64,000 nucleotides of DNA, taken from positions 1 to 64,000 of the forward strand of contig LGRX02034276.1 in the NCBI GenBank assembly GCA_001247695.2, in the 5' to 3' direction. Under the pieces are notes generated by a model. It was not told where the DNA came from, ran no database searches, and was given only the letters and a program-made list of their open reading frames with translations. Below are positions 7,082 to 61,427 of the stretch, in pieces. Within the stretch, counting starts at the first letter, position 1. Each line of letters opens with the position of its first letter. The DNA comes from Cymbomonas tetramitiformis (lineage: Eukaryota; Chlorophyta; Pyramimonadophyceae; Pyramimonadales; Pyramimonadaceae). Both the position numbers and the translations under genes were made by a program.

Positions 7082-7324
7082 TGCGAGGAAGACAGATACG
7101 CTGTCCGGCTAAGCTCCCTAGGAAACAAACTGATAATCATATAACTTGTGTCTGGCCGAAGCTCTATGCTCTCGGAAACCCAGACAGTGAAACGATGACT
7201 GTACTACTGTACTGTACTGCTGTACAGTACAGTGCTAGGATGTCACGGACACGAGACGGAAGCAGGGTCAGGCTAGGGGCTAGTCAGAGCCCATAATAAC
7301 TAAGCCTAAACCCGAAGTCCAGCA
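7082..7324 (-). repeat. 3' LTR of element B
   Basis: 243 bp. On the minus strand it runs TGCTGGACTTCGGG...CTCGCA and is preceded by the purine-rich ACGGGTGGTG. Confidence 0.93.
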
Positions 7325-7509
7325 CACCACCCGTGGGTGTGACTACCTAGCAAGGCAGGTACAGGGTATACAGCCACGTGATAACAAACAAACACCTACG
7401 TGCAACTCGGTGGAAACCGATCACTTCTAGCTGGGTGCCGGGGTCTTGACCCGGTCATCCCACTACTGGGCTAAAGCTAATCAAGCTGCCAGGATGATTG
7501 ACTAGAAAC

Positions 7510-9684
7510 TCAGCCACTTTGAAGCTGGTCAGCAGAGCTGAGTTCAGCGGTTGGGATGTAAACACAGAGTAACCCCGAAGTGAATTGCAGACTGTCCTTT
7601 TGAAATTGAGCACCACCAGGCCCAAGTGGGCAAGGCGGTTCCACAGCAGAAAGTAAATTAACTGAAGAACCCATACAAGCAGATTCCCATGGTGGTTTGA
7701 ACATTGAAGAAAGAGATAAAAGAACTCGATCGTCAGGCGGCCAATCACGGATGTCCAGAGAGCCAAGTGGCGGATCCGAAGCAAAGATGCCTCCAGTAGA
7801 CCGATGGACGGTGACTCCGGGCTCAACCAGGCCCCTGTCACCACCGCCCACGGCAACCAGAGATGCCGTAGCACTGGCCAGTAGAGAACAACAGAGCATC
7901 GAGGACATTAACGCACACCGGAGAAAACTCGGCGGCGCCCGCGGACGGTACATCGGAGCTGCTAGTGGCGATGCCCCCCTGTCAGAGTCATGCTCAAGAG
8001 TGCCGAAGGAGTCAAAAGCCACTTGCTGCCCGCCGTCAGAGTCATTGTCAGAGCCTTGGTCGTTGTCAGAGATTTCAGAGCCAATGTCAGAAGCCTCAAT
8101 CGTCATGCCAGCAAACAGCGGAGCCGGTGCAGAGTCGCCAAGCTGGAGCGATGGGACAGAACCAGGCAAGCCGAGAGAGCCAGGGACAGCCACTGGTGGG
8201 TCATGAGCCGTAGGCACACCACCAGCCACGAGTGCAGAGGGATCCCGAACCGCAGGCGGTGGCGGAATCGAACCCCGTGCACCCGAGTGGAATGTGGCTA
8301 GAGGAAAGTGAGCCACGCCGTCATCGTCATCCGCCGCATCCTGAGCGGAAGCCGCCGCATCCTGAAAGTGCCGCAGAGACGTGGGCTCAGCCGTCACAAA
8401 AGAATGTGCCGACAGCTCGCACACCTCTGGGCGACCCTCCATCGTGCAGAGCGACTCGAAGGCGTGCTCATCCCCCGCGTCATAGAAACGCTGGAAACGA
8501 ACAGCCAAGCAGTCAGTCTCGTAGTCTTCAACCGCACTACAATAGTGGGCAGAGTGAAGACCGCCGTTGGGGCATTCAGCATGCCAGTGCTTCAAACCAC
8601 TCTTGGCACACACCGCATTCTGGCAGTGAGGCACGAAGGCACCACTCTTCTTGTCAAATGAGACAGGAGGAGCGGTGCCAAGCGGTTTAACACCAGCACG
8701 ATGATGCTTAGCAGCAGAGCGGGTAAGGTGCTTGCCCGCAGGCGGAGGCCCTTCCCGCTTCTGCCGCTTCAGGTCACGAATGTCCTGTTGCATGCGCTCC
8801 AGCTGCTTCTGCAGACTGGACAACGCCGCAGCCAGGTCAGACGCGCCATCGCCGAACGACAGAGCAGAGACAGGGGCGTCAGAGACTCTCAGGCCGTGGC
8901 GGAATTGCTCCCGCACACGAGCCTGAATAGTCAGGAGAGACACGCCCTGCCGCTGGTCAGCCCGAGCCAGAGAGTTAGCCAAATCACGGTATAGCCACGA
9001 ATCGCCGAGAGCCTTCAGAAACCGCCGCTTCACCGCGTCCTCCGGCAAGTTGTGGGAACGCTGAACGTCCCTCAACAGTCCATTGAACTCGCGGATGCCA
9101 CGGTCAGGATCCTTGCTGCTGGGGATGCGGACCGCCAGCAGCAACTCAAAAGAGTCAAAGGGTTCCGAACGTTCCTGGAGCATGCGCACCACCTCAAGGG
9201 CAGCGCGCTTGCCATCTCCAGGAACGTCGGACCCAGAGGCCTCAAGCCAGTCACGGGCAGGCGAGCCAGGGCGAGCCAGAAATGTCAGAGCCGAAAGCAA
9301 CAACTCATTCGCCTCATGTCTAGCCTCAACCGCCATGTCAGTCAAGTCAAACAGGGGAGCAAACGCCGATGACTGAAGCACGAACTGTGCGCGCAACTCA
9401 TGCATTAACTGTGAAAAAATGTCCACTGCGTCTGCCTCTGTCCCTGCAAAGCGCTCCGATTTGTCGCCAAGAATCTTTGTGGCAACGGTTTTGGCAACCT
9501 TCCTGTCGAAATTGTCACGAGCCAGCTGCTTACACTTGTCCAATATTTCCCTCGCAGCTGCGGTGGTCGGAGCTGGCAGCTGTGGGGTGTGTGGCGTCGC
9601 AGAATGTTGCGCACCCACATCATCGAAGATAGTTTCTAATCTACGGACGCGAGACCGCGTCATGTTGTTCGTTGTGGTAACCAT
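7510..9684 (-). CDS. Intact gag polyprotein of element B (724 aa)
   Basis: An upstream in-frame ATG at 9786 exists, but 9684 is chosen because MVTTTN...RRLETIFDDVGA is where similarity to the A and D gags begins. Domains by eye: N-terminal capsid-like region (residues 1-280, with EASGSDVPGDGKRA and SLARADQR); a coiled-coil stretch around 282-308 (SSLQKQLERMQQDIRDLK); a zinc knuckle CX4CX6HX4C at C354, C359, H366, C371; the motif CELSAHSF; an acidic Asp/Ser-rich linker; a hydrophobic segment at about 590-609; then VGGGDRGLVEPG and the ending SADQLQSG. No DTG/DSG protease motif and no RT are seen. The membrane segment is unexpected in a gag and is conserved in A, C and D. The protein very probably functions in particle assembly with enzymes supplied by another element. 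Confidence 0.9.
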   Translation of the reverse strand: MVTTTNNMTRSRVRRLETIFDDVGAQHSATPHTPQLPAPTTAAAREILDKCKQLARDNFDRKVAKTVATKILGDKSERFAGTEADAVDIFSQLMHELRAQFVLQSSAFAPLFDLTDMAVEARHEANELLLSALTFLARPGSPARDWLEASGSDVPGDGKRAALEVVRMLQERSEPFDSFELLLAVRIPSSKDPDRGIREFNGLLRDVQRSHNLPEDAVKRRFLKALGDSWLYRDLANSLARADQRQGVSLLTIQARVREQFRHGLRVSDAPVSALSFGDGASDLAAALSSLQKQLERMQQDIRDLKRQKREGPPPAGKHLTRSAAKHHRAGVKPLGTAPPVSFDKKSGAFVPHCQNAVCAKSGLKHWHAECPNGGLHSAHYCSAVEDYETDCLAVRFQRFYDAGDEHAFESLCTMEGRPEVCELSAHSFVTAEPTSLRHFQDAAASAQDAADDDDGVAHFPLATFHSGARGSIPPPPAVRDPSALVAGGVPTAHDPPVAVPGSLGLPGSVPSLQLGDSAPAPLFAGMTIEASDIGSEISDNDQGSDNDSDGGQQVAFDSFGTLEHDSDRGASPLAAPMYRPRAPPSFLRCALMSSMLCCSLLASATASLVAVGGGDRGLVEPGVTVHRSTGGIFASDPPLGSLDIRDWPPDDRVLLSLSSMFKPPWESACMGSSVNLLSAVEPPCPLGPGGAQFQKDSLQFTSGLLCVYIPTAELSSADQLQSG

Positions 9685-10106
9685 GATAGAGAGAGACAGG
9701 GGAGAAGGTTGAGCTAAACAGGGAGATGGTGGAATAACGCTTACAGCGGCCAGATAGTTTGTAGAAGCCTCAGTTGTACCGATCAAAATTCACAGGTCGT
9801 GAGCGGAACCATGAGAGCGGCCAAAATTTGTTACGTGTGGAACGACCTCGCCGGAGCCAGCGGCGCACGAAACAGATTAACTCTCGCTGCGACGATGCTT
9901 CCGTAAAATAAAAATAATCCGTCACGAACTGATCTCCTGCGCAGCGAAGGCGAGCACAATGCGTGCCGCCATCACTGCCAAGTCAAAAGGCCATACCGTA
10001 AGAGTAATTCACCACCGCCCAAGTGGGCGCTCAACCCCTCCTACGTCCTACTTAGCCGAACATGGCAACAGCAAGGCGCTGTGCCATCATCAGAATCACC
10101 GGAAAG

Positions 10107-16470: not shown

Positions 16471-16761
16471 TGTTACGGATCGAAAGATGACAGACGCCCG
16501 CAGTCGCGATGTTGGTACGTCGTCGTCGATGTCACACGCATGGTCGATCATCGATCTGTAACAGTCCGATCTGTACGAGTACCACTGAAATGCGCGAAAG
16601 GATCATCATCCTCCGCGTAGCTCAGTTGGTTAGAGCGTCGCACTAGAGAAGCGAACGTCACGGGTTCAAATCCCGTCGTGGAGCACTTTCGCCCCATGAC
16701 GATATATGATTTGACCCGGCTCGTACAGTGAAAATCCCCGCACCGATTTCCAACCCTAACA
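16471..16761 (+). repeat. 5' LTR of element F
   Basis: 291 bp, TG...CA. Contains the tRNA-like sequence at 16611-16683. Confidence 0.92.
16611..16683 (+). tRNA. tRNA-like cloverleaf inside the F 5' LTR (loop triplet AGA)
   Basis: Folds as a class I tRNA: acceptor CTCCGCG/CGTGGAG (7 pairs, one G-T), D stem GCTC/GAGC, anticodon stem TCGCA/AGCGA (four pairs plus an A-A mismatch next to the loop), loop CTAGAGA, 5-base variable loop, and T stem ACGGG/CCCGT with TTCAAAT. Box A TAGCTCAGTTGG and box B GGTTCAAATCC fit internal Pol III promoters. The anticodon AGA would read Ser UCU, but serine tRNAs have a long variable arm, so this is unlikely to be a working tRNA-Ser. Only TTT follows, so termination is weak. 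Confidence 0.65.
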
Positions 16762-16762
16762 T

Positions 16763-16779
16763 TGGTATCGAAGCGACGG
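16763..16779 (+). promoter_or_regulatory. Primer-binding site of element F
   Basis: TGGTATCGAAGCGACGG begins two bases after the LTR; TGGTATC matches the complement of the initiator tRNA-Met 3' end, the usual plant LTR primer. Confidence 0.75.
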
Positions 16780-16857
16780 TTCGGAAACCGCCTCAGATGT
16801 AACGGCATAAGGCACACGATGTGACCTACGCTAAGATCGCGTATGCTCGGGCACGGT

Positions 16858-17471
16858 TGTCAGGGTTATGACCGATGACATATGTGTCATACATGTCATA
16901 CGTATCATACCTGTCATCCATGTCATGTCATGTCATATATTATTATGACAGTCGGTCGTGTCATATATTATTATGACAGTCGACAGTATGGTCGATCATG
17001 ACTGTACAGGTCGAGTCGCGTCATACATTTATGACAGTCGTCAGTACGGTCGACTATGACATGTACAGTCGTACCATTTGTCATTCACTCACCTTGAGTG
17101 ACACCTGTCATTGAGAGGCCAGGTTGTGGCATCGAGATGACAAAGCAAGATGAAGTCTTGAAGAACCGGAAGTGTTCGGAGAAAACTCATCTTCGCTTCT
17201 AGCATGTTCTGAACAAGCATGCGAGTATCATATGGCTTATTCGTTCAGCCGATACTGATTGTTCAACCAATGCCTTGGGTTCACAACCCAATTGTGGTGG
17301 CATCTATGAGATGCGGGGCATTGCGTAAAATGAGGTAGCGTTGGGCTACAGCAGTCACTTCTGAAGAAGCACTGCACTCATATCCACACATACGCTGCGT
17401 GAGCTATTAACGTTCCATAATAGCCTCGCTATATATCATATATCATATCGCTTCCAAGCGAACCCTTACGA
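16858..17471 (+). repeat. 5' LTR of element G
   Basis: 614 bp. Its first 200 bp are packed with TGTCAT/ATGACA motifs, including two tandem copies of a 25-bp unit GTCATATATTATTATGACAG (16930-16985), probably U3 regulatory repeats. Confidence 0.9.
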
Positions 17472-26571: not shown

Positions 26572-27185
26572 TGTCAGGGTTATGACCGATGACATATGTG
26601 TCATACATGTCATACGTATCATACCTGTCATCCATGTCATGTCATGTCATATATTATTATGACAGTCGGTCGTGTCATATATTATTATGACAGTCGACAG
26701 TATGGTCGATCATGACTGTACAGGTCGAGTCGCGTCATACATTTATGACAGTCGTCAGTACGGTCGACTATGACATGTACAGTCATACCATTTGTCATTC
26801 ACTCACCTTGAGTGACACCTGTCATCGAGAGGCCAGGTTGTGGCATCGAGATGACAAAGCAAGATGAAGTCTTGAAGAACCGAAAGTGTTCGGAGAAAAC
26901 TCATCTTCGCTTCTAGCATGTTCTGAACAAGCATGCGAGTATCATATGGCTTATTCGTTCAGCCGATACTGATTGTTCAACCAATGCCTTGGGTTCACAA
27001 CCCAATTGTGGTGGCATCTATGAGATGCGGGGCATTGCGTAAAATGAGGTAGCGTTGGGCTACAGCAGTCACTTCTGAAGAAGCACTGCACTCATATCCA
27101 CACATACGCTGCGTGAGCTATTAACGTTCCATAATAGCCTCGCTATATATCATATATCATATCGCTTCCAAGCGAACCCTTAAGA
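26572..27185 (+). repeat. 3' LTR of element G
   Basis: 614 bp, starts TGTCAGGG and ends AACCCTTAAGA, followed by the duplication ACGGT. Preceded by the polypurine tract AAGAGGGGAGATC. Confidence 0.9.
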
Positions 27186-27382
27186 ACGGTGATGTGACCT
27201 GCGCTACGATCGCGTATGCACGGGCACGATGTGACCCGCGCTGATGACGTGGACACATTCCACACAACCCCCGGTACGAGCGGACAAGGTTGGCTGCCAC
27301 GTCATCACATCTGAGGTCGGACCTCTGAAAAGTAACTCGACACGAATGTCGTGAGGTCACGACACTTTAAAGAGGGGAGATA

Positions 27383-27674
27383 TGTTACGGATCGAAAGAT
27401 GACAGACGCCCGCAGTCGCGATGTTGGTACGTCGTCGTCGATGTCACACGCATGGTCGATCATCGATCTGTAACAGTCCGATTTGTACGAGTACCACTGA
27501 AATGCGCGAAAGGATCATCATCCTCCGCGTAGCTCAGTTGGTTAGAGCGTCGCACTAGAGAAGCGAACGTCACGGGTTCAAATCCCGTCGTGGAGCACTT
27601 TCGCCCATGACGATATATATGATTTGACCCGGCTCGTACAGTGAAAATCCCCGCACCGATTTCCAACCCTAACA
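27383..27674 (+). repeat. 3' LTR of element F
   Basis: 292 bp, preceded by AAAGAGGGGAGATA. Confidence 0.92.
27523..27595 (+). tRNA. tRNA-like cloverleaf inside the F 3' LTR
   Basis: Same sequence as 16611-16683 over its full length, including the A-A mismatch and AGA loop. Its duplication follows from LTR replication. Confidence 0.65.
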
Positions 27675-28528: not shown

Positions 28529-28767
28529 TGACTTCGGGTTTAGGCTTAGTTATTATGGGCTCTGACTAGCCCCTAGCCTGACCCTGCTTCCGTCTCGTGT
28601 CCGTGACATCCTAGCACTGTACTGTACAGTAGTACAGTACAGTAGTACAGTCATCGTTTCACTGTCTGGGTTTCCGAGAGCATAAAGCTTCGGCCAGACA
28701 CAAGTTATAGGATTATCAGTTTGTCTCCTAGCGAGCTTAGCCGGACAGCGTATCTGTCTTCCTCGCA
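28529..28767 (+). repeat. 5' LTR of element D (start truncated by gap)
   Basis: 239 of 243 bp, ends CTCGCA at 28767. Confidence 0.9.
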
Positions 28768-28786
28768 GGTTATGGGCCCACCACGC
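28768..28786 (+). promoter_or_regulatory. Half-tRNA primer-binding site of element D
   Basis: GGTTATGGGCCCACCACGC directly follows the LTR. It is the exact reverse complement of 19 nt of the anticodon stem-loop of plant initiator tRNA-Met (GCGTGGTGGGCCCATAACC). Drosophila copia starts its primer site with the same GGTTATGGGCCCA and is primed by a tRNA-iMet cleaved in the anticodon arm. The usual TGGTATCAGAGC 3'-end site is absent here. The CACCACGC end fits plant-type rather than insect-type tRNA-iMet. Confidence 0.85.
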
Positions 28787-31116
28787 AGTGGAAGCGGTAG
28801 GCCGCACCGGCTTTCCGGTGATTCTGATGATGGCGCAGCGCCTTGCTGTTGCCATGTTCGGCTAAGTAGGACGTAGGAGGGGTTGAGCGCCCACTTGGGC
28901 GGTGGTGAATTGCTCTTACGGTATGGCCTTTTGACTTGGCAGTGATGGCGGCACGCATTGTGCTCGCCTTCGCTGCGCAGGAGATCAGTTAGTGACGGAT
29001 TATTTTTTTATTTTGCGGAAGCATCGTCGCAGCGAGAGTTAATCTGTTTCGTGCGCCGCTGGCTCCGGCGAGGTCGTTCCACACGTGACTGATTTTGGCC
29101 GCTCTCATGGTTTCGCTTACGACCTGTGAATTTTGATCTGTCAGCTGAGACTTCTACAAACCATCTGGCCGCTGTAAGCGTTTTTCCACCATCTCCCTGT
29201 TTAGCTCAACCTTCTCCCCTGTCTCTCCATCATGGTTACAACAACAAATAGATCGATGCGGTCTCGCGTCCGTAGATTAGAAACGATTTTTGATGACGTC
29301 GGTGCGCAGCACGCTGCGACTCCACACACGCCGCAGCTGCCGGCACCGACCACCGCAGCTGCAAGAGAGATTTTGGACAAATGTAAGCAGTTGGCTCGTG
29401 ACAGTTTCGACAGGAAAATTGCCAAGACCGTTGCCACTAAGATTCTAGGCGACAAATCGGAGCGCTTTGCGGGAACAGAGGCAGACGCTGTGGACATTTT
29501 TTCACAATTAATGCATGAGCTTCGCACGCAGTTTGTGCTCCAGTCATCGGCGTTTGCTCCCCTGTTTGACTTAACTGACATGGCAGTTGAGGCCAGGCAT
29601 GAGGCAAATGAGCTGTTGCTCTCGGCTCTGACATTTCTGGCTCGCCCTGGCTCGCCTGCCCGTGACTGGCTTGAGGCCTCTGGGTCCGACGTTCCTGGAG
29701 ATGGCAAGCGCGCTGCCCTTGAGGTGGTGCGCATGCTCCAGGAGCGTTCGGAACCCTTTGACTCTTTTGAGTTGCTGCTGGCGGTCCGCATCCCCAGCAG
29801 CAAAGATCCTGACCGTGGCATCCGCGAGTTCAATGGCCTGTTGAGGGACGTTCAGCGTTCCCACAACTTGCCAGAGGACGCGGTGAAGCGGCAGTTTCTA
29901 AAGGCTCTCGGCGATTCGTGGCTGTACCGTGATTTGGCTAACTCTCTGGCTCGAGCTGACCAGCGGCAGGGCGTGTCTCTCCTGACTATTCAGGCTCGTG
30001 TGCGGGAGCAGTTCCGCCACGGCCTGAAAGTCTCTGACGCCCCTGTCTCTGCTCTGTCATTCGGCGATGGCGCGTCTGACCTGGCTGCGGCGTTGTCCAG
30101 TCTGCAGAAGCAGCTGGAGCGCATGCAACAGGACATTCGTGACCTAAAGCGGCAGAAGCGGGAAGGGCCTCCGCCTGCGGGCAAGCACCTTACCCGCTCT
30201 GCTGCCAAGCTTCATCGTGCTGGTGTTAAGCCGCTTGGCACCGCTCCTCCTGTCTCGTTTGACAAGAAGAGTGGTGCCTTCGTGCCCCACTGCCAGAATG
30301 CGGTGTGTGCCAAAAGTGGTTTGAAGCACTGGCATGCTGAATGCCCCAACGGCGGTCTTCACTCTGCCCACTATTGTAGTGCGGTTGAAGACTACGAGAC
30401 TGACTGCCTGGCTGTTCGTTTCCAGCGTTTCTATGACGCGGGGGATGAGCACGCCTTCGAGTCGCTCTGCACGATGGAGGGTCGTCCAGAGGTGTGCGAG
30501 CTGTCGGCGCATTCTTTTGTGACGGCTGAGCCCACGTCTCTGCGGCACTTCCAGGATGCGGCGGCTTCCGCTCAGGATGCGGCAGCTGACGATGACGGCG
30601 TGGCTCACTTTCCTCTAGCCACATTCCACTCGGGTGCACGGGGTTCGATTCCGCCACCGCCTGCGGTTCGGGGTCCCTCTGCGCTCGTGGCTGGTGGTGT
30701 GCCTGCGGCTCATGACCCACCAGTGGCTGTCCCTGGCTCTCTCGGCTTGCCTGGTTCTGTCCCATCGCTCCAGCTTGGCGACTCTGCACCGGCTCCGCTG
30801 TTTACTGGCATGAGGATTGAGGCTTCGGACATTGGCTCTGAAATCTCTGACAACGACCAAGGCTCTGACAATGACTCTGACGGCGGGCAGCAAGTGGCTT
30901 TTGACTCCTTCGGCGCTCTTGAGCATGAATCTGACAGGGGGGCATCGCCACTAGCAGCTCCGATGTACCGTCCGCGGGCGCCGTCGAGTTTTCTCCGGTG
31001 TGCGTTGATGTCCTCGATGCTCTGCTGTTCTCTACTGGCCAGTGCTACGGCATCTCTGGTTGCCGTGGGCGGTGGTGACAGGGGCCTGGTTGAGCCCGGA
31101 GTCACCGTCCATCGGT

Positions 31117-31626
31117 CTAGCTCCCATCTGTAGCCATGTGCCTCTCATCCAACGAGAACAGGTCCATGCGGCCTGTCATAATGCCAGTGTTCGAGAAGTT
31201 TGCGGGATTATCCCACATATTTCCGTGGTATCTCTTCGTTTTGCTCCAAAGCAACCGTGACAACTCCCGCTCGGTCCGGGCCTCCATGCTCACTCCCGAA
31301 GAAATCAAGCCTAGGTGTGTCATGTCACGGAATGATGTGTATGACAAGCCCCCCATGTCCGGGGAGTTAAGTATCGTGGCAAACACTCCTCCGCTATGGC
31401 CAGCTCTCCCATACAACTCCCCCAACGTGAGGTGGCCATGCGCCCCTAGGAAAGCCTGCAACGATGGCTTAGTCTTTATCCCCTTGGTCTGCAACCCTAT
31501 AAAATTGAGTAGAGTACAATCCTTCCCCTTGTACCAGTGAGGGTTTACGTTAATGTAATGTGAGCTCCTGCGGAGGCCCTCCCCTGCCTCCCTAATGTAC
31601 TCTGGGTAACGCCTGCACTTCTTCAT
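31117..31626 (-). pseudogene. Unidentified coding fragment between gag D and the left TIR (169 aa)
   Basis: Open frame MKKCRRYPEYIREAGEG... with HWYKGKDCTLLNFIGLQ, SLQAFLGAHGHLTLGELYG and SRLLWSKTKRYHGNMWDN. It looks like real protein, but no family is recognised. Its stop codon is formed by the gag sequence at the insertion boundary (CTA at 31117-31119), so it is cut off there and was once longer. It occupies the 534 bp between the gag breakpoint and the left TIR and could be a captured exon or the remains of another transposon. Confidence 0.5.
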
Positions 31627-31653
31627 TGATGGGATGCGGTTCTCTTTGTTGTC

Positions 31654-31680
31654 AACACACTATTCGATGAAAATGATATT
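31654..31680 (+). repeat. Left TIR
   Basis: 27 bp, starts AACACACTATTCG, exact inverted match to 41611-41637; similarity continues imperfectly inward for about 8 bases. Confidence 0.85.
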
Positions 31681-31926
31681 ATCATATGTCATTTTTGGAT
31701 TTATATATATTTCAAAAAAATCAGGGTTTAGTGATATTTATGCGCGAAATAGGGATACATAAAGGCAACACGGTAGAAAAGTGCAGTATGCGTACAATGA
31801 AAACACCGAAATATGCATACATGTATCATTCTTTATTCAAATGTTTACGAGTAGAGTACTTTTCACCCTATACCGTCGAGGCATGACTGATACTATCAGT
31901 CAGGGCGGTCGACAAATCCTACTATT

Positions 31927-34900
31927 TTATTCATCATTCTCATCTTCCTCATCTGCATCATTCTCTTCTTCCTCAGAATCGGCAGTGGCCGCTTCCTTGC
32001 CCTTCGCCGTCGGTTCGCTCTTCTGTTTTGGCTTCGTCTCGGCGTCCTGATCGGGCTCGTTGTCGAAATTGATCAGCCGTTGCTGCGCAGAGCTGACCAT
32101 GAACTGGTCGTGGTCGAAGCCGATCGCGTTCATACCACACCTCATGGCGGCCATGGACGTCGAGCCGACGCCGCAGCAAGCGTCGAGAATCCAGTTGAGT
32201 GGATGGCCGTTCTCATCCATCTTGCCCGGATTGTCACCGAGCATGTGGCACTGGATCAGCTCCATCAACAGAGCTTGGGGTTTCTGATGGTTATTCACGG
32301 CTTTGTTGTCGCGTTTGAACATCTGGTGCACAACCGGGAAGCCGCGCAAAAGTGACGCGCGGCTCACACGTTCACCTTCTCCAGTATCAAAGTTGAACAT
32401 CCACTCCGGCTTTTTAGTAGACTCCCCCTGGGCATCGCTCTTTACATGGTACCCCAGGACGCCACATTCAACGTCATTGTAGCGCACGGTCCTGTTGGGG
32501 TTCATGTTCACGTTCTGCTTGTGCCAGAAGAACCGCTCCGCGCGGCCGGAGCAGTAATTGTCAATCACCTCCAGGAAATCGCTTTGTTGGACGAAACCGC
32601 AAAAGATAGCGATAGTCCATGCCGGGGCGGTGGTCTTGGCGTTGAAAGACTCCAGGAACGGTTGCACCTCCTCCTTGGTCATCGCGTCGGGAGTCTTCTC
32701 CTTGTCAAGGGCGTAATTGCAGTCGATGATCGTCCCCGTGAAGGGCAGCCTCGGGACGTCCTTCATATCGCTCATGCTGCCCTTGACGATCTTCCAACGA
32801 GGGAACATCGGCACGTTCGTCTCATGTGTGGGCTCGTCCTCCTCAAGGCCTGCCTCTCCTGGAACCTTAAGCTCCGGCCCCTCGGTCCGCGCCTCCCGAT
32901 AGAGTTTGATGTCGACTTTCACCTCGACCTGTTGCAAGCCTAGGATGTGCCCCGCGCGTGGCGCCTGCGCTTCTTGGAGATTCGCCCGCGCGTTCTCGAC
33001 GTAATTCAAGATCGCGTGCGGAACTTCCCCAGACCCCCCCCGGCGCGCTCCCCCCTGAGTTGAAGGTAAGCAGCCGATCAACGACTCGATTTTCTCTTGG
33101 GAGCTCCAGTAGGGGGTGAACTCGGCCTTGAATGCGTCCCAGGTTTGCAATCCCGCCGCGGACACCAAGTGCTTCTGCACCATGCGTTCCTTCTTGAACT
33201 GGCTTATCATCAGGCCCCCCTCTTTTACTGACAACTCCTTCTGAATAATCAGGCGCAGATACGTGTCCACCTTGTCGAACTCCGCCTCCCCCGCCAAGCC
33301 GCCCAAGTTAATCCAGAACGTCATACCCATGGATTTGGCATTGTGGAGAAACTGAGCTTCTTCCACCAAAATGCCTGCCCCTTTAGACGAGCCCGCTCCG
33401 TGGTCCCCGCCTCCTCGTTGCACCTCGTCTTCCATCTGCAAGTAAAAAAAACATTTTTAGAATGTCTTAAAATATAGAAAAGGATGCTTTGGGGGGGTAA
33501 ACACTGTTTGAAGCAAAAGTAAAAAGTAATTTACCTGTCGGTTGGAGGTGCCTTTTTTGCCAGCTTTCTTGGCGGGTCCCTTAGCGGGCGAAGATGAGGC
33601 CTTGCGCTTTTTGGTCTTCGAAGCCAAAGGGTTTTTCATGCCCTTCAGGTCAAACCTTCTGTAAGCCTCCATGATCTTAACGCAGAGGTCCCACGTCTGC
33701 GGCCGGAAATTGGCAATTGTCCAGTGCATGAAGTAGTGGTTGATTTGCACGCCGCCGAACACAGAATGCTTGGACATCGCTACTTCCTTCACATGCGTCT
33801 CCATCGACTGGTTCAAGTGAGACATTACGGGGTACCAACTTGTGACCCGATCGAGGTGAGCGTTGATGTCATCCTCCAGCGTCTTCACCGTCACGTCTAC
33901 CTCAGGGAGGGTCTCAAGGTCTCCCTCGCGCTCAGACGTCTCCACATCCTCGATGTACTGGAATCCCTTGGGATATTTCTCGATATCCGGGACTGCAAAT
34001 CCATGCTCTGATTCGAACTCCGCCATTTTTTGCACCAGCCCTCCGACCTCGTAATACCCAGGTTGATAAGAGGTACCCTCTTCGGTGTCCTCGGGGACAC
34101 CGGCGACGAACTCGGAGATCAACGCATCTCGGTAAACCTTGTACACGACCCCATTCTTTTCGAAAAGGGTCGAACGAAGCCCTTGCATGAACTGAGTGTG
34201 GTCTTTGCCTTTCGTCTTCTGGTCGATTTGGTTCTGCATCTCGCCTAAGAACCGAATCATGTCAGGCGTGAGACCGATGTAGATCTTGCTCTCGAAGAAC
34301 TGGAAAGCTATCTCCAACGGGATTTCCTCGTGACACTCGTCGGTGGCTTGATAACAGTGCTGGTGCCCAAAAACCTTGCCTCTGTATTTTCCCGCGAGAG
34401 CTTTTTTTATGGAGAATTCGGCACGGGTTTTGACATCGTCGATCGCAACAAGACCCGCATTGAAAGGGGCCCACGGGTTCTCCTTCCTGCTGTTCTTGAT
34501 CTCGTTCACCCAGCCCCTCTCTTGATCCCGGCAGGCCTCGTACCCCGTCGCGTGGTACAGGCATCCAATGGGGAGACGAAACACACTCCCTTGCTCAGCC
34601 GCCTCGTCGGTCGACATCGGGTTCGGCCACCGGTGCTCCATCTCGATTTGCCTGCACAGCTTTGCTTTCTCCTCAAAATCCATCTTTGCTGCATGCTCCA
34701 CTGTTAGCTTAGCGTGCCACCCATGTGCAGCCACCTCGGCTGCCTTCCTTGCCTCAGATGGGGTGGCCACTTGAGACATATCCACATTGGCGCCCGCTCC
34801 AGTAAAAGCTCTGGAGCCACTAGGTCCTTGAAGGGCGCGTTCGGCAGCACGCTGCACATCCGTTCTCCTGGCAGCCTGGGACAAGACGAAACTGTTCATT

Positions 34901-36045
34901 AGCTAATGAAAGCCTTCCGCCCCGGTCAGGGCTCAGGGCGCGCGGTTCGAGGCGGAAGGCGTTCATTAGCTAATGAACGCCTTCCGCCCCGGTCAGGGCT
35001 CAGGGCGCGCGGTTCGAGGCGGAAGGCGTTCATTAGCTAATGAACGCCTTCCGCCCCGGTCAGGGCTCAGGGCGCGCGGTTCGAGGCGGAAGGCGTTCAT
35101 TAGCTAATGAACGCTTTCCGCCCCGGTCCAGGCGCAGGGCGCGCGTTTCGGGGCCGAAAGCGTTCATTAGCTAATGAACACTTTCCGCCCCGGTCCAGGC
35201 GCAGGGCGCGCGTTTCGGGGCCGAAAGCGTTCATTAGCTAATGAACGCTTTCCGCCCCGGTCAGGGCTCAGGGCGCGCGGTTCGAGGCCGAAAGCGTTCA
35301 TTAGCTAATGAACGCTTTCCGCCCCGGTCAGGGCTCAGGGCGCGCGGTTCGGGGCCGAAAGCGTTCATTAGCTAATGAACGCTTTCCGCCCCAGTTTAGG
35401 CTCAGGGCGCGCGTTTCGAGGCCGAAAGCGTTCATTAGCTAATGAACGCTTTCCGCCCCGGTCCAGGCGCAGGGCATGAAAGGGACGTACCGAAGCCTCT
35501 ACAAATGGTATCTCGCCAGCAAGTCCGAGGTCATCGATCACTGCCGCTGGTCTCCTGCTTTGCCAGAAAGGAGCTGTAATCGACGCTTTCCACGCCTGGT
35601 TTACATAGCTCGCTAGATAGAATTCTTTGCTTTTATTTTCGTCTGCTGCTCTAGTTTTCAAACTTTGAAAAGCCAACAGCCGATTTGTGTGCTTTGGAAG
35701 GCTCAAGGCTTCCTCAAAGTTTGCGCTGTCTAATTCGATCACAGTAAGCTTTCTGTTTCTGTACGCGACGAAATACAGAATTGGAGTCTCGTTCTCAATG
35801 ATACTGTACGCTACGCGTTTCTCAGGAACGAGGCTACCCCCGGTTACAGTCGAAGAGGTAAATTTAGGAAAACTAAAAATTATTTCTTCATTTTCCTCGG
35901 AAGGGTCCTCAGAGTGAATCAGTAATTGCAGACTGTCCGAAGGATCGTCGGCTTCAAGGGTTCTAACAATGCTCCACTTGTTACCAAGATAGAGCTGGAA
36001 AATATGTTGAGCCCTCAGTGCTTGAAATGTTTCGAGTGTCGCCAT
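31927..36045 (-). CDS. Transposon-borne three-exon gene with DNA N4/N6-methyltransferase-like C-terminal domain
   Basis: Exons 36045-35491, 34875-33535 and 33435-31927, all in phase 0: donors TCG|GTACGT and CAG|GTAAAT, acceptors GTCCCAG and CTTGCAG. Start MATLETFQ; about 1,134 residues. Exon 1 (185 aa) and exon 2 (447 aa, with a Lys-rich tail) match nothing I know. Exon 3 (502 aa) holds, in order, a DPPY-like motif IIDCNY (about residue 870), AIFCGF, then KPQALL and LDACCGVGSTSMAAMRCG with GFDHD (about 1049), the SAM-binding FxGxG region, and a Glu/Asp-rich tail. The order DPPY before FxGxG is that of beta-class amino-methyltransferases. The catalytic DPPY has become DCNY, so DNA methylation is doubtful; binding is possible. 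Intron 1 (35490-34876) is almost wholly the palindrome array. An unspliced reading could start at ATG 34899 inside the first palindrome. Confidence 0.75.
34895..35446. repeat. Palindrome array 1: nine TTCATTAGCTAATGAA at 67-bp spacing
   Basis: The 16-bp palindrome starts at 34895, 34962, 35029, 35096, 35163, 35230, 35297, 35364 and 35431, exactly 67 bp apart. The 51-bp spacers are GC-rich with complementary ends: CGCCTTCC/GGAAGGCG in the first units, CGCTTTCC/GAAAGCG in later ones. In early units the full inverted repeat reaches 38 bp. It fills intron 1 of the minus-strand gene. Confidence 0.95.
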
Positions 36046-36369
36046 TGCGAAATGAGAGAAATTGGCTGTCAACTGTGAAAGGGGTGTGTGTGAATGAACT
36101 TTGAAAAAGTGATGTAACTTTAGCACAATAATAAAAGTCATTTCTGGCGGCTAAAAATGACATGTCGAATATCGATGTCAATTTTAATCAAAAATGACAT
36201 GCGCTGTCGCTTTTTGATTCGGTCTGTTCAGATCAAGGATATGATTTTAAGATATCCTGGTGTCATTTGCGCTGAAATCGAGGATCGATCGATTCAGTAA
36301 GATAGAAATTCTTGGTTGACTCGCAAGTCTATATCATTTTTAGAACGTAAAAAACGGCTTCATAAGCTA
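36046..36369. promoter_or_regulatory. Divergent promoter region between the two transposon genes
   Basis: About 320 AT-rich bases between MTase-like ATG 36045 and transposase ATG 36370, the only space for both 5' regions. Repeated AAAAATGACAT (near 36155 and 36189) on one strand. Function inferred from position. Confidence 0.4.
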
Positions 36370-36506
36370 ATGACGGCTAATTTTGACGAAAATATGTTTT
36401 CTATTCCTTTCGATGAAGGTTGCGAGATTATCTGCAAACCGTGCCCGGGAATAGTTATTGAAGATTCCATGGAAATAGGGGCTGACTTTTTCAATCATGA
36501 GCCAAT

Positions 36507-37587
36507 TGCCTATTCTAAAAATATTACGGTGGGTATACCCACCGTAATGCGAAACTGTGCATGCTCGTACCGACCGCGCAAGTAGGTTGCGGGGGTCAAC
36601 CCTATGATTTTTCTGTGTCCCAAGAGGTTGATTAAAGGCTGGAAAAGTTAATTTGCACGACTCCGATAAGTTTTGGCCACCTGCCACACCCTTGAAGTTG
36701 GAGAAATTACGGTGGGTAGGAATTATCCCTTACGGTGGGTATACACAATTAACGGTATTTGTAGACTCCTGGAGCTTGGTATAATATCGAGACACTTATT
36801 TGTTCGTTATTTACTTTGATTTTGGTATATAACCGACGTACCTTAGGGTACACATGAGCTGCCACCTGGCGGACCTCCATATATCGCACGTTCAAAATCA
36901 GGTAGCATGCAGACCAAAAAGATATTATTCACACTGTATTACAGGTGCACCTCTGTTATTTCCTAAACTACGGCGCTGCCTTCCTTGGCGATTACCTCGA
37001 GGCCGGGCTCTCTCAACTGGGTCCTGGTTCTCGACTAAGACTAAAGCTCAACTCGCGGGGTTTGTAGAAGGAGCGGTCACGTCAGAGGAGGGCGTTTGGG
37101 GCGGATCCCCCACCAAATATTCAAAACCAAAGTCCTCGCCCTTCTCAGAGTTATCTCCATCCAATTCAAACCATCAAACGTGATCCCGTATCGTTTTCCC
37201 GAGAGGGCTTCGCCGCGTCATAGGACGTCACCACCGCTTCGAGATGGTGTTGTAAGGGGTCCTCGCAAATATCTTAAAATTTGAATAGCCCATTCCCGCT
37301 TCCGCAAGCCCCGGCGGGCACGAGCAGCGTGCGAGCTACCAAAAGCTCATTGAAGCTCATTGCTTTTAGGGTTTCTGAGTTTGGGTTTCACTTTTCTCGC
37401 TGATGAGCCATTTCTGGCGCATGTGAAGGCTCCATAGAGGTTCATTGAAGTGTCTAGAACAAGTTGGTCACTGGTGACATGCCGTGATTCGCAGCCAATC
37501 AGCGGGAATTATTAGTACCCTTCGGGTGGGTATACCCACCGTAAGCACCTCTTACGGTGGGTATACCCACCCTTCGTAGAATAGGCA
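36507..37587. mobile_element. Short TIR element, copy 1 (nested in the transposase gene)
   Basis: Ends TGCCTATTCTA (36507) and TAGAATAGGCA (37587) in inverted orientation, each followed inward by the palindrome core GGTGGGTATACCCACC (36524-36547; two copies at 37525-37570). The interior has no ORF of note. The target duplication is unclear here. Shares ends with copy 2 at 60177-61225 but not the interior. Confidence 0.7.
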
Positions 37588-38123
37588 GCACAGCCCCCAA
37601 GCGCGAATACGCAATTGGTTCTTTGAACGCGCCTGACGTGTAGATCGGAAGTTAGCTCTAATTCTTCACGTTTCGGGTCACGCGCTTTGCGCGAAATTGA
37701 CTTACAAGAGATAAAAAGCAGACTTGATACAGAATTTTCAGAGACAAGTTTGGACTTGAGGAATGAAGACCCTCTTGTTTGTTTAAATGGTGAAGTGAAC
37801 AAGCAGATTGTCGTGCGCAAACCGTACGAATCCGACATACGCAAGAAACAATATACGGGCGTAATTAGTATTAAGCAGCGACGTTTGCAGGCGACAAGTA
37901 TATCAATGGCGAAACAATTAAGTGCAATTGCAAGTCGCACTGCCGTCTCATCTTTCTCATCCGCAGATATTCAGTCTTTTCATGAAAATATTTTCAAGAT
38001 GTCGCAAAAAGATAGAAAGGAATACTTCATCAAAGACTTGCTAAAACAATTTTCGATCTCGAGGACAAGTTCGACTTCAAATACTTTTTGGGCAAGAAGC
38101 AGTGTATGTTTTTTTTGAACTCG

Positions 38124-38688
38124 TTCATTAGCTAATGAACGGCCTCCGCCAAAGCGCGACTCACACAGACACTTTGGCTGCGGAACCGTTCATTAGCTAA
38201 TGAACGGCCTCTCGGCCAAAGCGCGACTCACAATTAGACACTTTGGCTGCGGGAACCGTTCATTAGCTAATGAACGGCCTCTGGCCAAAGCGCGACTCAC
38301 AATTAGACACTTTGGCTGCGGGAACCGTTCATTAGCTAATGAACGGCCTCTGGCCAAAGCGCGACTCACACATAGACACTTTGGCTGCAGGAACCGTTCA
38401 TTAGCCAATGAACGGCCTCTGGCCAAAGCGCGACGCACTTATAGACACTTTGGCTGCGGGAACCGTTCATTAGCTAATGAACGGCCTCTGGCCAAAGCGC
38501 GACTCACACATAGACACTTTGGCTGCGGGAACCGTTCATTAGCTAATGAGCGGCCTCTGGCCAAAGCGCGACTCGCACATAGACACTTTGGCTACGGGAA
38601 CCGTTCATTAGCTAATGAACGGCCGCTAGCCAAAGCGCGACTCGCACATAGACACTTTGGCTACGGGAACCGTTCATTAGCTAATGAA
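38124..38688. repeat. Palindrome array 2: nine TTCATTAGCTAATGAA at about 69-bp spacing
   Basis: Palindromes start at 38124, 38189, 38259, 38328, 38397, 38466, 38535, 38604 and 38673 (spacing 65, 70, then 69). Those at 38397 and 38535 have one substitution each. Arms extend to CCGTTCATTAGCTAATGAAC plus GG. Spacers are unlike those of array 1 but also contain an inverted pair GCCAAAG/CTTTGGC. The array lies in the intron before exon 39070 of the transposase gene. Confidence 0.95.
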
Positions 38689-38808
38689 CGGCCTCTGGTC
38701 AAAGCGAAATTTTTCTTGGACCTTGTGATAGATTGTGTAATCTTGTTCATCACAGGAATGTGGAATATTGTATCATAAATTTCTAAATAAATTTCATAAA
38801 GTACATTC

Positions 38809-38880
38809 GCGACGTTGGTCGAGTTGGTACGGCGCTAGGCTATGAACCTCGCACTCGTGGGTTCGATTCCCACTGAGGGT
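38809..38880 (+). other. tRNA pseudogene or tRNA-derived SINE head
   Basis: Box A TTGGTCGAGTTGG and box B GGTTCGATTCC are at normal tRNA spacing. D stem GTCG/CGGC and T stem GTGGG/CCCAC are good, the anticodon loop CTATGAA has a 4/5 stem, but the acceptor ends do not pair. The unrelated tail to about 39025 could be a SINE body. Confidence 0.5.
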
Positions 38881-41610
38881 CTAGGTTGCGCAGATTTAAG
38901 GCGTGGTGTGGAGAGTGCTGACGAGCATGCGACGGCCGTCCCGCCTGCAGACGTGCAGTGTTGGGGGTGTCTCCCAAGCGTCTTAAATTGGCATGACCTA
39001 CCAAACCCCTTATGCATTTTCTAGATAATGTGTTATTAATTTTTGAGTGACGGTTTTTTTTTGTAACAGGTGTGCTTTAAGTTCTACTATATGGCTTACG
39101 GCATCAGCTACGGGTATCTTCTCGACTGTCGGACACGCGTGCTCGAGGGCCGACACACGTTTGTTCATGGATTGACGTACGAGGAGGACAACCGCAAGAT
39201 TTCTCTGAAACGCGAGTCGGTCGTCGCCTGGCTCAAGAAATACGCCGACGAATACGGACAACACCAACCTGACCAAGAACTGATTCATCTTTCGGATGGA
39301 TTGACCATCGAAGAGCTGTGGGACGAGTACAACGAGGGCTTGCAAGAGAATGAGGAGAGGAAAAAATGCTCTCTCAGTTACATCTACAAAATATTTGACG
39401 AAGATTGCAGGAAGTGGCTCAAGATTCCATCGACGAACCGATTTTCTCAGTGCGATGTTTGCGCGTCCTTCAAGTTATTGAAGGAAGGCTTAACCAAATC
39501 TCAAAAAGGTGAATATTCAAGAATAGCTTTGTGATGTGTTTATATGCTTATGTAATTTGTTCACTGACCCAAATTTGTGTATCTTGCACAGCGCAATACA
39601 ACGGGCCTCTCAACAAACATCATGCAATCGCACGAGCGGAGCGCCAGAAGTACTACAAACATGGTCGTAAAGCGAATATGACCAAGAGCATTACCATGAA
39701 CAAAACTTGGCATAAGTATGCCTCGGTGATCATCGATGGCATGACGCAGTTGACCACCCGACTGCCACACTTTCGACGTATCCCTAAACATCTGGACTCT
39801 AAGGACTTCCTTGACGTGCACAACATGGGGAGCATGATCGAGAACGTGGGCCGCTTTATGGATTTCAACTACGCCAACTTCAAGGACGATGCGAACTTCC
39901 TTGTCAACGTTTTGCACCGGGATATCCTCCGCATTCAAGAGCATCGACGCAACGGGGACGGGGAAAATTCATACCCGATGCCGGAAGTATTGTATGTACA
40001 GCTTGACAATGTGAGCACCAACAAGAGCCCAAGTTGATGTTGGCATACGCAGCTTGGCTGGTGCACACGGACGTCTTTCGCAAGGTGAAACTCAACTTTC
40101 TGTTGGTGGGACATACGCACGAGAACATTGACCAGATGTGTTCACGCTTCTCCGTGCGTCTACGACGCAAGCAAGCTTGGACGCTCGACGAGATGATAGA
40201 GGTCGCACAAGAATGCTTTACGGATGGTGTAACGTGCGAGTACACCGAGAAGATCTTCGACTTCAGCTCTTGGTTTGATGGTCACGTCTTCGATTGCCAC
40301 AATATTTTGGCACAGCAGGCTTTCAAGTTCAAGAAGAACGAGCACGGCGAAGTGGGCATGCAGTACAAACAGTATTCCATTTCACCCAAATGGTTACCCG
40401 AGACTCCATTGCCAAAGCTTGCTTCTACACCCCCTGTCGCGGGGCCTGGATACATCAAGCCGATTCCTTTTACCGAAGAAGGCATCGAAAAGTTTGAGCA
40501 TACCTTACAGGCGTTGAAGGACATTTTGGGCACAAAGCTCACGGACGTGCACGAAAAGTTTTGGCGCGAGGATGTCATCGAGAAATAGCGCCACCTAACT
40601 GCTGGTGGAGAATGTCAAGCGCCCGCGATACCCTTCCAGCATCCCGAGAAAATCGCCATCGAGCGCAATGCCACCTTGGTTCGACTGATAGAGGCGCCTG
40701 CGTTGGCGATAGAAGCTGCCGGGGCTGCCGCCGTCCCCGCTATACCGGTGCGCATCCAACGCCGAATTGATCGAGCGCCGATAGAAGTGTACAACGGTAA
40801 ACGGAAACACCAAGGTCGAGCCCAAAAGCGAGCAGAGCAGTACGTGGACAACGCCCAGTGGGAGGTCACCTACGGCCAGATGACAGTCGGCAGCTTTGCA
40901 GTGGCTCTCGCGGTGGAATCTGAAAACGACAAGTTCGCTTTCCGCGTACAACTGAGGCGAAGCGAATGGTCGGATCCGTTGTACTTGGTGAAGGTGGAGG
41001 CGCGCTATCCGTCAACTCAACAACTGCTATATCGCTATTTCCAACCCAAAAAGCACACCGACACCAAGAAGAAGCACCTCGGCAAGCAGCTTGCGAGTCA
41101 CCCAGGAGCTTTCGCAGCGCCACCGGGCACCGACCGTCTACCGAGACTTTCGATAAGAATGAAATAGTGCTGGCATGGAATGTGGATGCGAAAGACCCCG
41201 AACGGAGTATACCGAACGAGCAATACGCGCAGATAGTCGTCGCTTTGCTTGCACAACAATCCAAACGCACGCGCAAGGACCTAGGTGACTTGAATGAATC
41301 GGATGATTCCGATGAAGACGAAGCTTTTGATAATTGCGTAGCGGTAGCGGTAGCACCTGAAGTGGACGCGTAAAGCAAGACGAAAAAAACATGTAAATAA
41401 TATGTGTATAACGTGTATATAGATTCTGAGTCAAAAGTTCTTTGTGTTTTCACTCCTCCTAGATTTCGAAAAAGTGCATTTGACCTCAATTTTGTACCAT
41501 AAAAACCATTAAATCTAATGCACAACCTGCACTTGCATGTTCTTGACTGTTAAAATGCGGCTTTTTAAGCCTATCATGATGTAAATAAGGCAATATCATT
41601 TTCACATGAG

Positions 41611-41637
41611 AATATCATTTTCATCGAATAGTGTGTT
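41611..41637 (-). repeat. Right TIR
   Basis: 27 bp, ends CGAATAGTGTGTT, exact inverted match to 31654-31680. Confidence 0.85.
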
Positions 41638-59420: not shown

Positions 59421-60176
59421 GGACTCTGTCTTCCATGATGGATAGACTTCTGAGATGTGATGTCCGATAAATCAATGCAACAGACAAACAACTCAACCTT
59501 AGAAGGTCGGATGAAGAGCTGATGATCGCTGCTGCTCTGAAAGAACTGGCAAATGAGAGCAGAGTGTCTCTATAAAGAGTAGAAACAAATATGCACTGTA
59601 TATTTTTGATGTGCATTACCGAAATGCCTCGTGATATAATAATTTCACAGAATAGGCATTGCTTATTGGCGGTATGATTAGATATGTAATGACCAATGAA
59701 AAATAGGATGACCAGTATGGCTTATTCAACAGGCATGACTACCTCAAAGAGATGCCACTACTCGGATACATTTCAAGACATAAGGGCAATAGACTTACAG
59801 TAAACACTCGATTTTAAGAAAACAGGAATTTTAGATCAGATTAGCAACTTTCTTATTTATATAGAGATCTTAAATATGGAGTGTTATGTGTTAAATATTA
59901 TGAAGAAATCAAAAAAGCTGGCTACTTTCTTATTGGCGGGTTTTCTTATTACCGAGTGATTACTGTATTATGTAGCCTTCAAAGGCAGCTAGCATTTATG
60001 CTGCATTGGTCTGCTCGGTGGCTTTGACCTAGGTGTTGTACTCAGGCCGTAGCCTGCATATTGCATTGAGTACTCTTGACACCTTTAATGATCCAATCAG
60101 ATGATATGTATGAAATATCAAGAATGGTTGCCCTTTTTCGGTGATCATCGGTGGCAGAGGCTATAGTGCCTATTCT

Positions 60177-61225
60177 TGGCAAATTATGGTGGGTATACCC
60201 ACCGTAAGAGCAATTTTAAATGGGTCATAACACATGCATAACTCGAACAAGGGCATGATACCCATGCCCGGGGATGATTATTACGAGGCCTTTCGTGCGA
60301 AGATAGCTTAAAATAGCGGACTCCATAGGTTTTGATATGTGAAAACGCTTTGTCAAGTTGGAAAATTGACTGGTGGGTAACCTAAAGTGCTTACGGTGGG
60401 TTTACCCAAGACATCAATATGGGTAGATGCACACAGCACATATGCATGTCTCCGTGTGGCATATTATTATAAAATAAGCTTCATATGCATATTGAGACTT
60501 CACATTTTACCCCATACATATCGGAGGCTTGTACAATTCATTTCGCGCAGCTAGCGATCCACCAAGGGTAAGATGTCTATTTAGCAATACTATTTCCCTA
60601 GTGCACCACACTAATTAACCCCCTGAGTGTACCCCACCATCTCGGGCGAAGTTCGATGCCAACCGACCCATGGCGTTAATACAAAGTCAAACACATTCCG
60701 ACGGATGTATTTTACCACCCACGACCCCATCTCACTATTCCCACTCACCCTTAAGCCAGCCGCCCCACGCCACCCTCACACTCAGTCCCCAGCCCTAAAT
60801 CGGACACCTCCTGTGGCCACCCCCTGAGTGCACCCCACCATCTCGGGCGAAGTTCGATGCCAACCGACCCATGGCGTTAATACAAAGTCAAACACATCCC
60901 GACGGATGTATTTTACCACCCACGACCCCATCCCACCATTCCCACTCACCCTTAAGCCAGCCGCCCCACGCCACCCTCACACTCAGCCCCCAGCCTTGAA
61001 CTTAGTACCTACCCTAGACTTCGAGTGGACGGCGGCATGATGTTTGAGGGCTTCTAGGGGCTGGGGTTGAGTTTTGGCGCTTTGCCCGGCTCTAGTCGAC
61101 ACTTTTAATCGGGGTAACGACCTCCGGGCCCGCGCGATACGCGTTAAACGCGAAAAGTTTAGGGTTGGGTAGCCCACCGTAAAGCCGCGTTACGGTGGGT
61201 ATACCCACCTTGCCAAGAATAGGCA
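60177..61225. mobile_element. Short TIR element, copy 2
   Basis: Ends TGCCTATTCTTGGCAA and its inverse TTGCCAAGAATAGGCA, each followed by the palindrome core GGTGGGTATACCCACC. ATAG flanks both sides (60173-60176, 61226-61229). Arm 1 has the empty site near 22254 (GCACTATGGCC), confirming insertion. The interior includes a 201-bp tandem duplication. Confidence 0.88.
60624..60994. repeat. 201-bp tandem duplication
   Basis: TGAGTGTACCCCACCATCTC at 60624 recurs at 60825 and both units run nearly identically; Pro/His-rich ORFs are artefacts. Confidence 0.88.
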
Positions 61226-61427
61226 ATAGTGCTTGCACCGAATCAATATACAATTCTAGTCTGGATACATGCTAGACCAGATGTATACAAATGTCTAGGT
61301 CTTCGAAATCAGGCTCATATGTACGCCATGGCTGATGACCTTAGAAATGTCCGATACATATGTGTGTTAACTTCATGGAGCTCTGCATGGTTTGACTGTA
61401 TATAGTCACAATTACCAAAACAATCAA

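Follow-up and report, generated by a model that had tools for sequence, protein, structure and literature searches.

Paired palindrome arrays in two divergent transposon genes

The 64,000-bp window analysed here, on contig C24185 of the chlorophyte Cymbomonas tetramitiformis, contains a DNA transposon with terminal inverted repeats (TIRs). Its two divergent genes, for a DNA methyltransferase-like (MTase-like) protein and a transposase, each include an array of the same 16-bp palindrome, TTCATTAGCTAATGAA, in a predicted intron. The paired arrays are conserved in a family of such elements in the 851.7-Mb assembly that was searched, and a divergent second family has a palindrome of its own, common to both of its arrays. 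On balance, the arrays appear to be cis-regulatory, the palindromes being putative sites of a dimeric, sequence-specific DNA-binding protein, probably element-encoded, that would regulate both genes.

Array 1 (34895..35446), in predicted intron 1 of the MTase-like gene, consists of nine perfect palindromes, all spaced at exactly 67 bp. Array 2 (38124..38688), in the transposase gene intron, consists of nine palindromes, seven of them perfect, at distances of 65, 70, and then six times 69 bp. Sixteen of the 18 copies are exact and two, both in array 2, have one substitution. At ≤3 mismatches, the window contains 20 matches to the palindrome, as compared with a shuffle mean of 0.23. The block common to both arrays is longer than the palindrome and comprises 20 bp, CGTTCATTAGCTAATGAACG. 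The spacers of the two arrays showed no clear relation in a sense-to-sense alignment (global p = 0.02, local p = 0.46), and the family copies conserve the palindrome. An original prediction, made from the window sequence, of nine palindromes at exactly 67 bp and nine at about 69 bp in these introns, sharing the palindrome and not the spacer, therefore holds.

A lone degenerate palindrome with two mismatches, TTCATAAGCTAATGAC, lies in the divergent promoter region (36359..36374). It was found at the corresponding site in 18 of 31 copies of the element; seven others gave an array copy only and six gave none. The 2.7 kb between the arrays in the window is enlarged by a nested insertion (36508-37586, see below).

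Copies across the genome

The genome has 11,151 exact copies of the 16-mer, as compared with five of a reversed-sequence control, and the junction of array 1 with exon 2 occurs 685 times at ≤3 mismatches and never for the control. Thirty exact junction matches and the window made up the sample of 31 copies, allelic copies included. The junction pattern includes half a palindrome, so that the sample is biased towards elements with array 1, old or array-less ones being under-represented, and some arrays are cut by contig ends. With this sampling, array 1 was present in 31/31 copies, with 4-13 palindromes each and a mean of 8.2 (253 in 31 copies). Of 24 loci sampled for array 2, the window included, 22 had it; in the two loci scored without it (L134 and L139), the fixed 1.8-kb stretch that was searched may have missed the array. 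The arrays are thus a conserved feature of the transposon family, as had been proposed.

The copy numbers of the two arrays are uncorrelated (rho = -0.14, p = 0.57; 20 copies, two zeros dropped) and are equal in three of the 20 copies with both counted. Hence the nine and nine of the window is a coincidence of this copy. The expectation that further copies would have both arrays with equal unit counts is borne out for the arrays, as far as the sampled copies go, and fails for the counts, and equal numbers are not a design feature.

It had also been considered that the palindrome might be a common genome-wide satellite, with most of its copies away from the element. At least 8,613 of the 11,151 exact 16-mers (77%) have array-1 or array-2 flanks, i.e. 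4,755 of array-2 type and half of 7,716 array-1-type sides; this share is a lower bound, with up to 23% of the genomic palindromes unclassified. The palindromes of array-1 type would be accounted for by the 685 junctions at a mean of 8.2 palindromes. With at least 77% of the exact copies array-flanked, the satellite reading was not upheld. No relatives were found in viral contigs or prokaryote genomes, and a single exact 16-mer in each of 70 viral contigs was judged to be due to chance.

Conservation of the palindrome

The 253 array-1 palindromes showed 25 substitutions in 4,048 bases. Comparison with the column majority, using 200 units of exactly 67 bp from the 31 copies, gave deviations in 15 of 3200 palindrome cells (0.47%), 692 of 6600 non-CpG spacer cells (10.5%), and 181 of 3200 CpG spacer cells (5.7%). 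Variants present in one copy alone (private variants) served as a proxy for post-insertion mutation. They were found in 7/3,188 palindrome and 18/6,647 non-CpG spacer cells (Fisher p = 0.83). The corresponding figure for non-CpG exon-2 sites was 21/10,191 cells from 28 copies, with L093, L094, and L117 left out (exon-2 difference of 29%, 30%, and 15%, respectively). Low deviation from the majority in the palindrome, yet equally frequent private variants, indicates a constraint on the lineages that propagate: mutations in the palindrome arise freely in new copies, but lineages that spread have not retained them.

When distinct array-1 variants were arranged in a McDonald-Kreitman-like table, the private/shared counts were 7/3 for the palindrome and 22/45 for the spacer (Fisher p = 0.035), and thresholds of three and five loci gave p = 0.018 and 0.028, respectively. 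Array 2 has similarly different levels, with 0.36% differences in the palindrome versus 3.9% in the spacer. Exon differences are spread evenly over codon positions, as expected for copies that evolve mostly neutrally.

A divergent family with its own palindrome

A genome search with protein P0014, in which 98 of 2,896 candidates were scored, gave six matches at 87-100% identity, while the others, including the copy at L086, were about 56-58% identical. The six matches define family 2, whose MTase-like protein is 55-57% identical to that of family 1, to which the window copy belongs. Family 2 is described here from two of the six loci, L142 (5 kb of C17208) and L143 (a cut stretch of C11736). 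Between L142 and the window, exon 1 of the MTase-like gene is 25%, exon 2 is 50%, and the transposase is 64% identical at the protein level.

The family-2 palindrome, GTATCATTRGCYAATGATAC, differs from that of family 1 and is common to both family-2 arrays, which lie in the same two introns. In L142 it has the form GTATCATT(A/G)GC(T/C)AATGATAC and is present six times between exons 1 and 2 and five times in the transposase intron, and L143 has six in each array. Thirteen of the 19 distances between neighbours in the two loci are 66-68 bp, three are 59 bp, and the remainder are 115, 122, and 123 bp. The outer 16 of the 20 bases showed four substitutions in 368 (23 sites, two loci). At the centre, 10 of 12 array-1 sites have AGCT and 6 of 11 array-2 sites have GGCC; the remaining sites have AGCC, GGCT or AGCT. 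Both in L142 and in L143 (270-620), the centres are mostly GGCC in array 2 and AGCT in array 1, with AGCC and GGCT intermediates; perhaps the centre is undergoing a switch.

The family-2 spacers look unrelated to those of family 1 and to each other between the two arrays. The degenerate site lies in a non-coding promoter block that is also present in L142 and L143, with 73-75% identity across families (E 6e-6 and 7e-5), and its right half in family 2 is AATGATAC, which matches the family-2 arrays. The families thus differ by symmetric changes of the palindrome that are present in both arrays, with the period and the intron position largely kept. A site that is altered in both arrays, with spacers that do not follow, points to a trans-acting reader.

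Possible function of the arrays

The core is sharply bordered, symmetric, repeated, and long kept; it stands in two arrays with unrelated surroundings and differs pairwise between the families, which fits a dimeric reader. That sites occur in an intron of each gene, and one in the promoter that the two share, suggests that they control expression. From conservation we infer binding, from binding regulation, and likewise the identity of the protein. Each 16-20 bp palindrome would bind a dimeric sequence-specific protein, the most likely candidates being the MTase-like protein and the transposase, and the 4-13 sites in each intron, together with one weaker promoter site, would set the expression of both genes jointly. 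They could act in both directions as an intronic enhancer or silencer, or titrate the protein and so tie expression to the copy number of the element. Conservation of the palindrome and the share of at least 77% array-flanked genomic copies count for such a cis-regulatory role, and the predicted β-class MTase-like fold suits a DNA-binding protein. More tentatively, the element may contain an intron-borne two-gene circuit, in which family-specific operators evolve together with a reader encoded by the element. This reader, possibly a DNA methyltransferase with altered catalysis, would sense the dose of the element and limit transposition or set its timing.

Several observations weigh against protein sites of this kind. 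No DNA-binding domain was identified, and the binder could be a host factor. Neither 67 nor 69 bp corresponds to a whole number of helical turns, and the centre of the family-2 palindrome is variable (AGCT, GGCC, AGCC, GGCT). In three of four arrays the ungapped spacer arms are inverted repeats as well, a feature that a simple protein site would not need. For array 2, there is no significant private/shared contrast (palindrome 4/2, spacer 21/23, p = 0.67). Detection of palindromes at ≤4 mismatches slightly favours conserved ones, and the counts include allelic copies.

The main rival is a role in RNA, which we consider unlikely but worth serious attention: units of ~67 nt would form hairpins in the pre-mRNA, and the introns would be rods of tandem hairpins that join splice sites or supply small RNAs to a processing pathway. 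Hairpins between palindromes were obtained for all of the 25 units that were folded (16 from the window and nine from L142), and the two intron RNAs folded far better than their shuffles (z = -20.7 and -11.4, matched by 0/20 shuffles each), although spacers folded alone were unremarkable for several units. Pairing of the outer spacer arms, aligned without gaps, extends past the palindrome in three of the four arrays (p = 0.00035, 0.003, and 0.036); complementarity in family-1 array 2 is not above shuffles (p = 0.51). Stem changes outside the core in family 1 are, however, mostly uncompensated, and the 16-bp core is fixed in sequence beyond what mere pairing would need. Counted by cells, deviations in the array-1 sense-strand stem favour G.U over A.C (275 vs 48), with 218 of the 275 from two pairs, whereas counted by pairs G.U occurs at 13 and A.C at 10, with no clear strand bias (hand tallies). 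As judged by this strand-neutral count, an RNA-strand bias of the stem changes was not taken as evidence; an earlier, stronger G.U signal came from the structure selected by alifold, a program biased towards G.U. Matches of Rfam microRNA families over the arrays were below the gathering scores and were judged to be hairpin artefacts. Intronic palindromic minisatellites of C. elegans, which have been linked to splicing (PMC4039745), speak for an RNA role. Structure may play a part, but the sequence of the core counts for more.

Two other explanations, both improbable, place the function elsewhere or deny it. The palindromes could serve transposition as internal sites that load or sequester the transposase or mark DNA, and not gene control. 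Internal transposase sites, often several, are known in DDE-type transposons, and a transposition role would account for conservation in propagated lineages that is absent from private variants. The sites are, however, intronic and about 3 kb from the ends rather than subterminal, one is at the shared promoter, and the resemblance between TIR and palindrome, as seen by eye, is weak. Slightly less probable still are functionless minisatellites expanded in introns, with symmetry held by the repair of quasi-palindromes or cruciforms. Units arranged as tandem inverted repeats may expand and correct themselves, and both the wide-ranging and independent copy numbers (4-13) and the lack of a significant private/shared contrast in array 2 agree with this. 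Against it stand the sharp border of conservation with recent mutation equal in palindrome and spacer, the sharing of one palindrome by two arrays whose spacers differ, and the repetition of the layout in the divergent family. Array 2 was also considered as a coding repeat (69 = 3x23 peptide), for which 0 of 7996 scored candidates reached E ≤ 10, a search in which repeats can be filtered.

The MTase-like and transposase genes

Placement of array 1 in an intron is predicted from splice signals and reading frame. The MTase-like gene, on the minus strand, is predicted to have three exons, and its protein matches proteins of Cymbomonas tetramitiformis. Exon 1 (35491..36045) is a predicted open frame of 185 codons that ends at a phase-0 donor, GTACGT, which was recovered from 26 of 31 copies, a few of the loci being truncated. 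Predicted intron 1 (34876..35490, minus strand) comprises 615 nt, nearly all of it taken up by array 1, with donor and acceptor in phase 0. Its tail to the acceptor belongs to the search pattern and is for that reason necessarily identical in 31/31 copies. Three annotated homologues (866-894 aa) retrieved with an exons 1-2 query start no earlier than the acceptor region, without exon 1; no annotated protein among these three matches has the spliced exon 1-exon 2 model, candidates having been limited to 0.55-1.75 times 1134 aa (7994 scored).

Exon 2 (33535..34875, minus strand) is followed by exon 3 (31927..33435, minus strand), which encodes a domain resembling β-class N6-adenine/N4-cytosine DNA MTases with a degenerate motif IV (DCNY). 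Its match to Pfam N6_N4_Mtase (E 1.8e-5, 25.3 bits) is just under the cut-off of 26.7. Foldseek matched a predicted model of exon 3, with a mean predicted local distance difference test (pLDDT) score of 54.8, to M.BceJIV and CcrM at E about 1e-8. Active β-class DNA MTases have a catalytic motif of DPPY type; here most of the aligned rows spanning this position have DCNY, DGNY or DCVY instead.

The transposase intron (38103..39069, plus strand) includes array 2 and a tRNA-like segment, and its donor is damaged in the window copy. The donor pattern before array 2 was matched in 20 of 24 loci, 19 of them canonical and that of the window altered. Exons 3' of array 2 (39070..41373, plus strand) encode a DUF7869 domain (PF25273; E 1.4e-34 for 40007-40588 and 2.3e-6 for 39513-40037) and are frameshifted in the window copy, so that the gene is damaged both by frameshifts and at the donor site. 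The protein, a putative DDE-type transposase, is assigned here by its DUF7869 domain, of which the open-access literature searched makes no mention.

Segment 38689-38897, 3' of array 2, includes a tRNA-like stretch (38816-38873; Rfam tRNA 28.1 bits, gathering 29). It was not found at the corresponding place in L086 and hence is perhaps an insertion resembling a short interspersed nuclear element. In the annotated Cymbomonas protein P0017 (CYMTET_20758), the N-terminal part resembles by eye the C-terminus of the transposase and the remainder is an MTase-like domain; it is perhaps a rearranged copy.

Ends of the transposon and nested insertions

The window copy extends over 31654..41637, a nested 1.08-kb insertion included, with TIR arms at 31654-31688 and 41603-41637 and the repeat sequence AACACACTATTCGATGAAAATGATATT. 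The same TIR ends were found in the window, L086, L087, and L122. Three of these four copies read at both ends have target-site duplications (TSDs) of 4 bp, namely ACAG (L086), GGTG (L087), and GCAG (L122). The window copy lacks a 4-bp TSD and has 534 extra bp at its left end (31120-31653); its outer junctions have CTA alone in common. The 534 bp are missing from the uninserted copy of the repeat into which the transposon is inserted, and they contain a minus-strand open frame of about 180 aa that extends to the TIR. This repeat is retroelement-like, with an uninterrupted copy at 7081-9914 oriented oppositely to that at about 28530-31119, one of the two representing the uninserted target.

The nested insertion (36508..37586), with TTACGGTGGGTATACCCACC-type ends, is absent from L086, L087, and L122. 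It lies in the shared promoter of the window copy and is bounded by palindromic TTACGGTGGGTATACCCACCGTAA-type ends. Similar ends recur about 1 kb apart at 60167-60207 and 61163-61227, and the insertion is therefore probably a member of a family like miniature inverted-repeat transposable elements. Elsewhere in the window, a tRNA-Ser (aga) call with tandem repeats of the unit GTCATGTCATATATTATTATGACAGTCG occurs twice, at 16611-17068 and 26589-27596, which suggests a duplicated segment or a pair of elements.

Comparison with known systems

No equivalent of paired, family-matched intronic arrays in a two-gene DNA transposon was found in the open-access literature, most subscription journals being outside the search, in agreement with the original statement that no family with this layout was known. 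Transposon-borne repeats, arrays of dimer sites, and intronic palindromic minisatellites are each known separately, and it is their paired, family-matched combination that was not found described. Regulation of a eukaryotic DNA transposon through intronic operator arrays would be unusual, if true. As the sites are numerous, exactly defined, paired, and jointly different between families, cis-trans co-evolution, copy-number sensing, and the role of the MTase-like protein are directly testable, and about 685 junction copies in one genome are a source of natural variants.

Tandem dyad sites of 16-20 bp read by an element-encoded dimer are known from viruses and plasmids, as in the EBNA1 family of repeats and in iterons. 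Those serve replication or maintenance, whereas the arrays described here lie in transposon introns and their binder is putative. As regards its ends, the element resembles Sola-type DNA transposons in having TIRs and a 4-bp TSD; we know of no intronic palindrome arrays or MTase-like partner in Sola. A TSD of 4 bp is given for Sola2 (PMC3627910).

Among the KDZ transposons (Kyakuja, Dileera, Zisupton), some have a DNA-modification gene beside the transposase, which in fungal ones is of the TET/JBP type (PMC12730594), and Zisupton and Kyakuja have been reported from Chlamydomonas (PMC8226300). The element shares with some of them a DNA-modification-type gene next to the transposase. KDZ elements differ in a TSD of 7-8 bp, as compared with 4 bp here, and the second gene here is MTase-like and not TET/JBP. 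CeRep25B of C. elegans consists of tandem palindromic units, mostly intronic, that have been linked to splicing decisions (PMC4039745). Its unit is 24 bp, and that source does not describe it as part of a transposon or as forming paired arrays. Introners, reported from a green alga and from other organisms, are likewise repeated sequences that form introns. They are dispersed across host genes, whereas the arrays described here were seen in one kind of element only.

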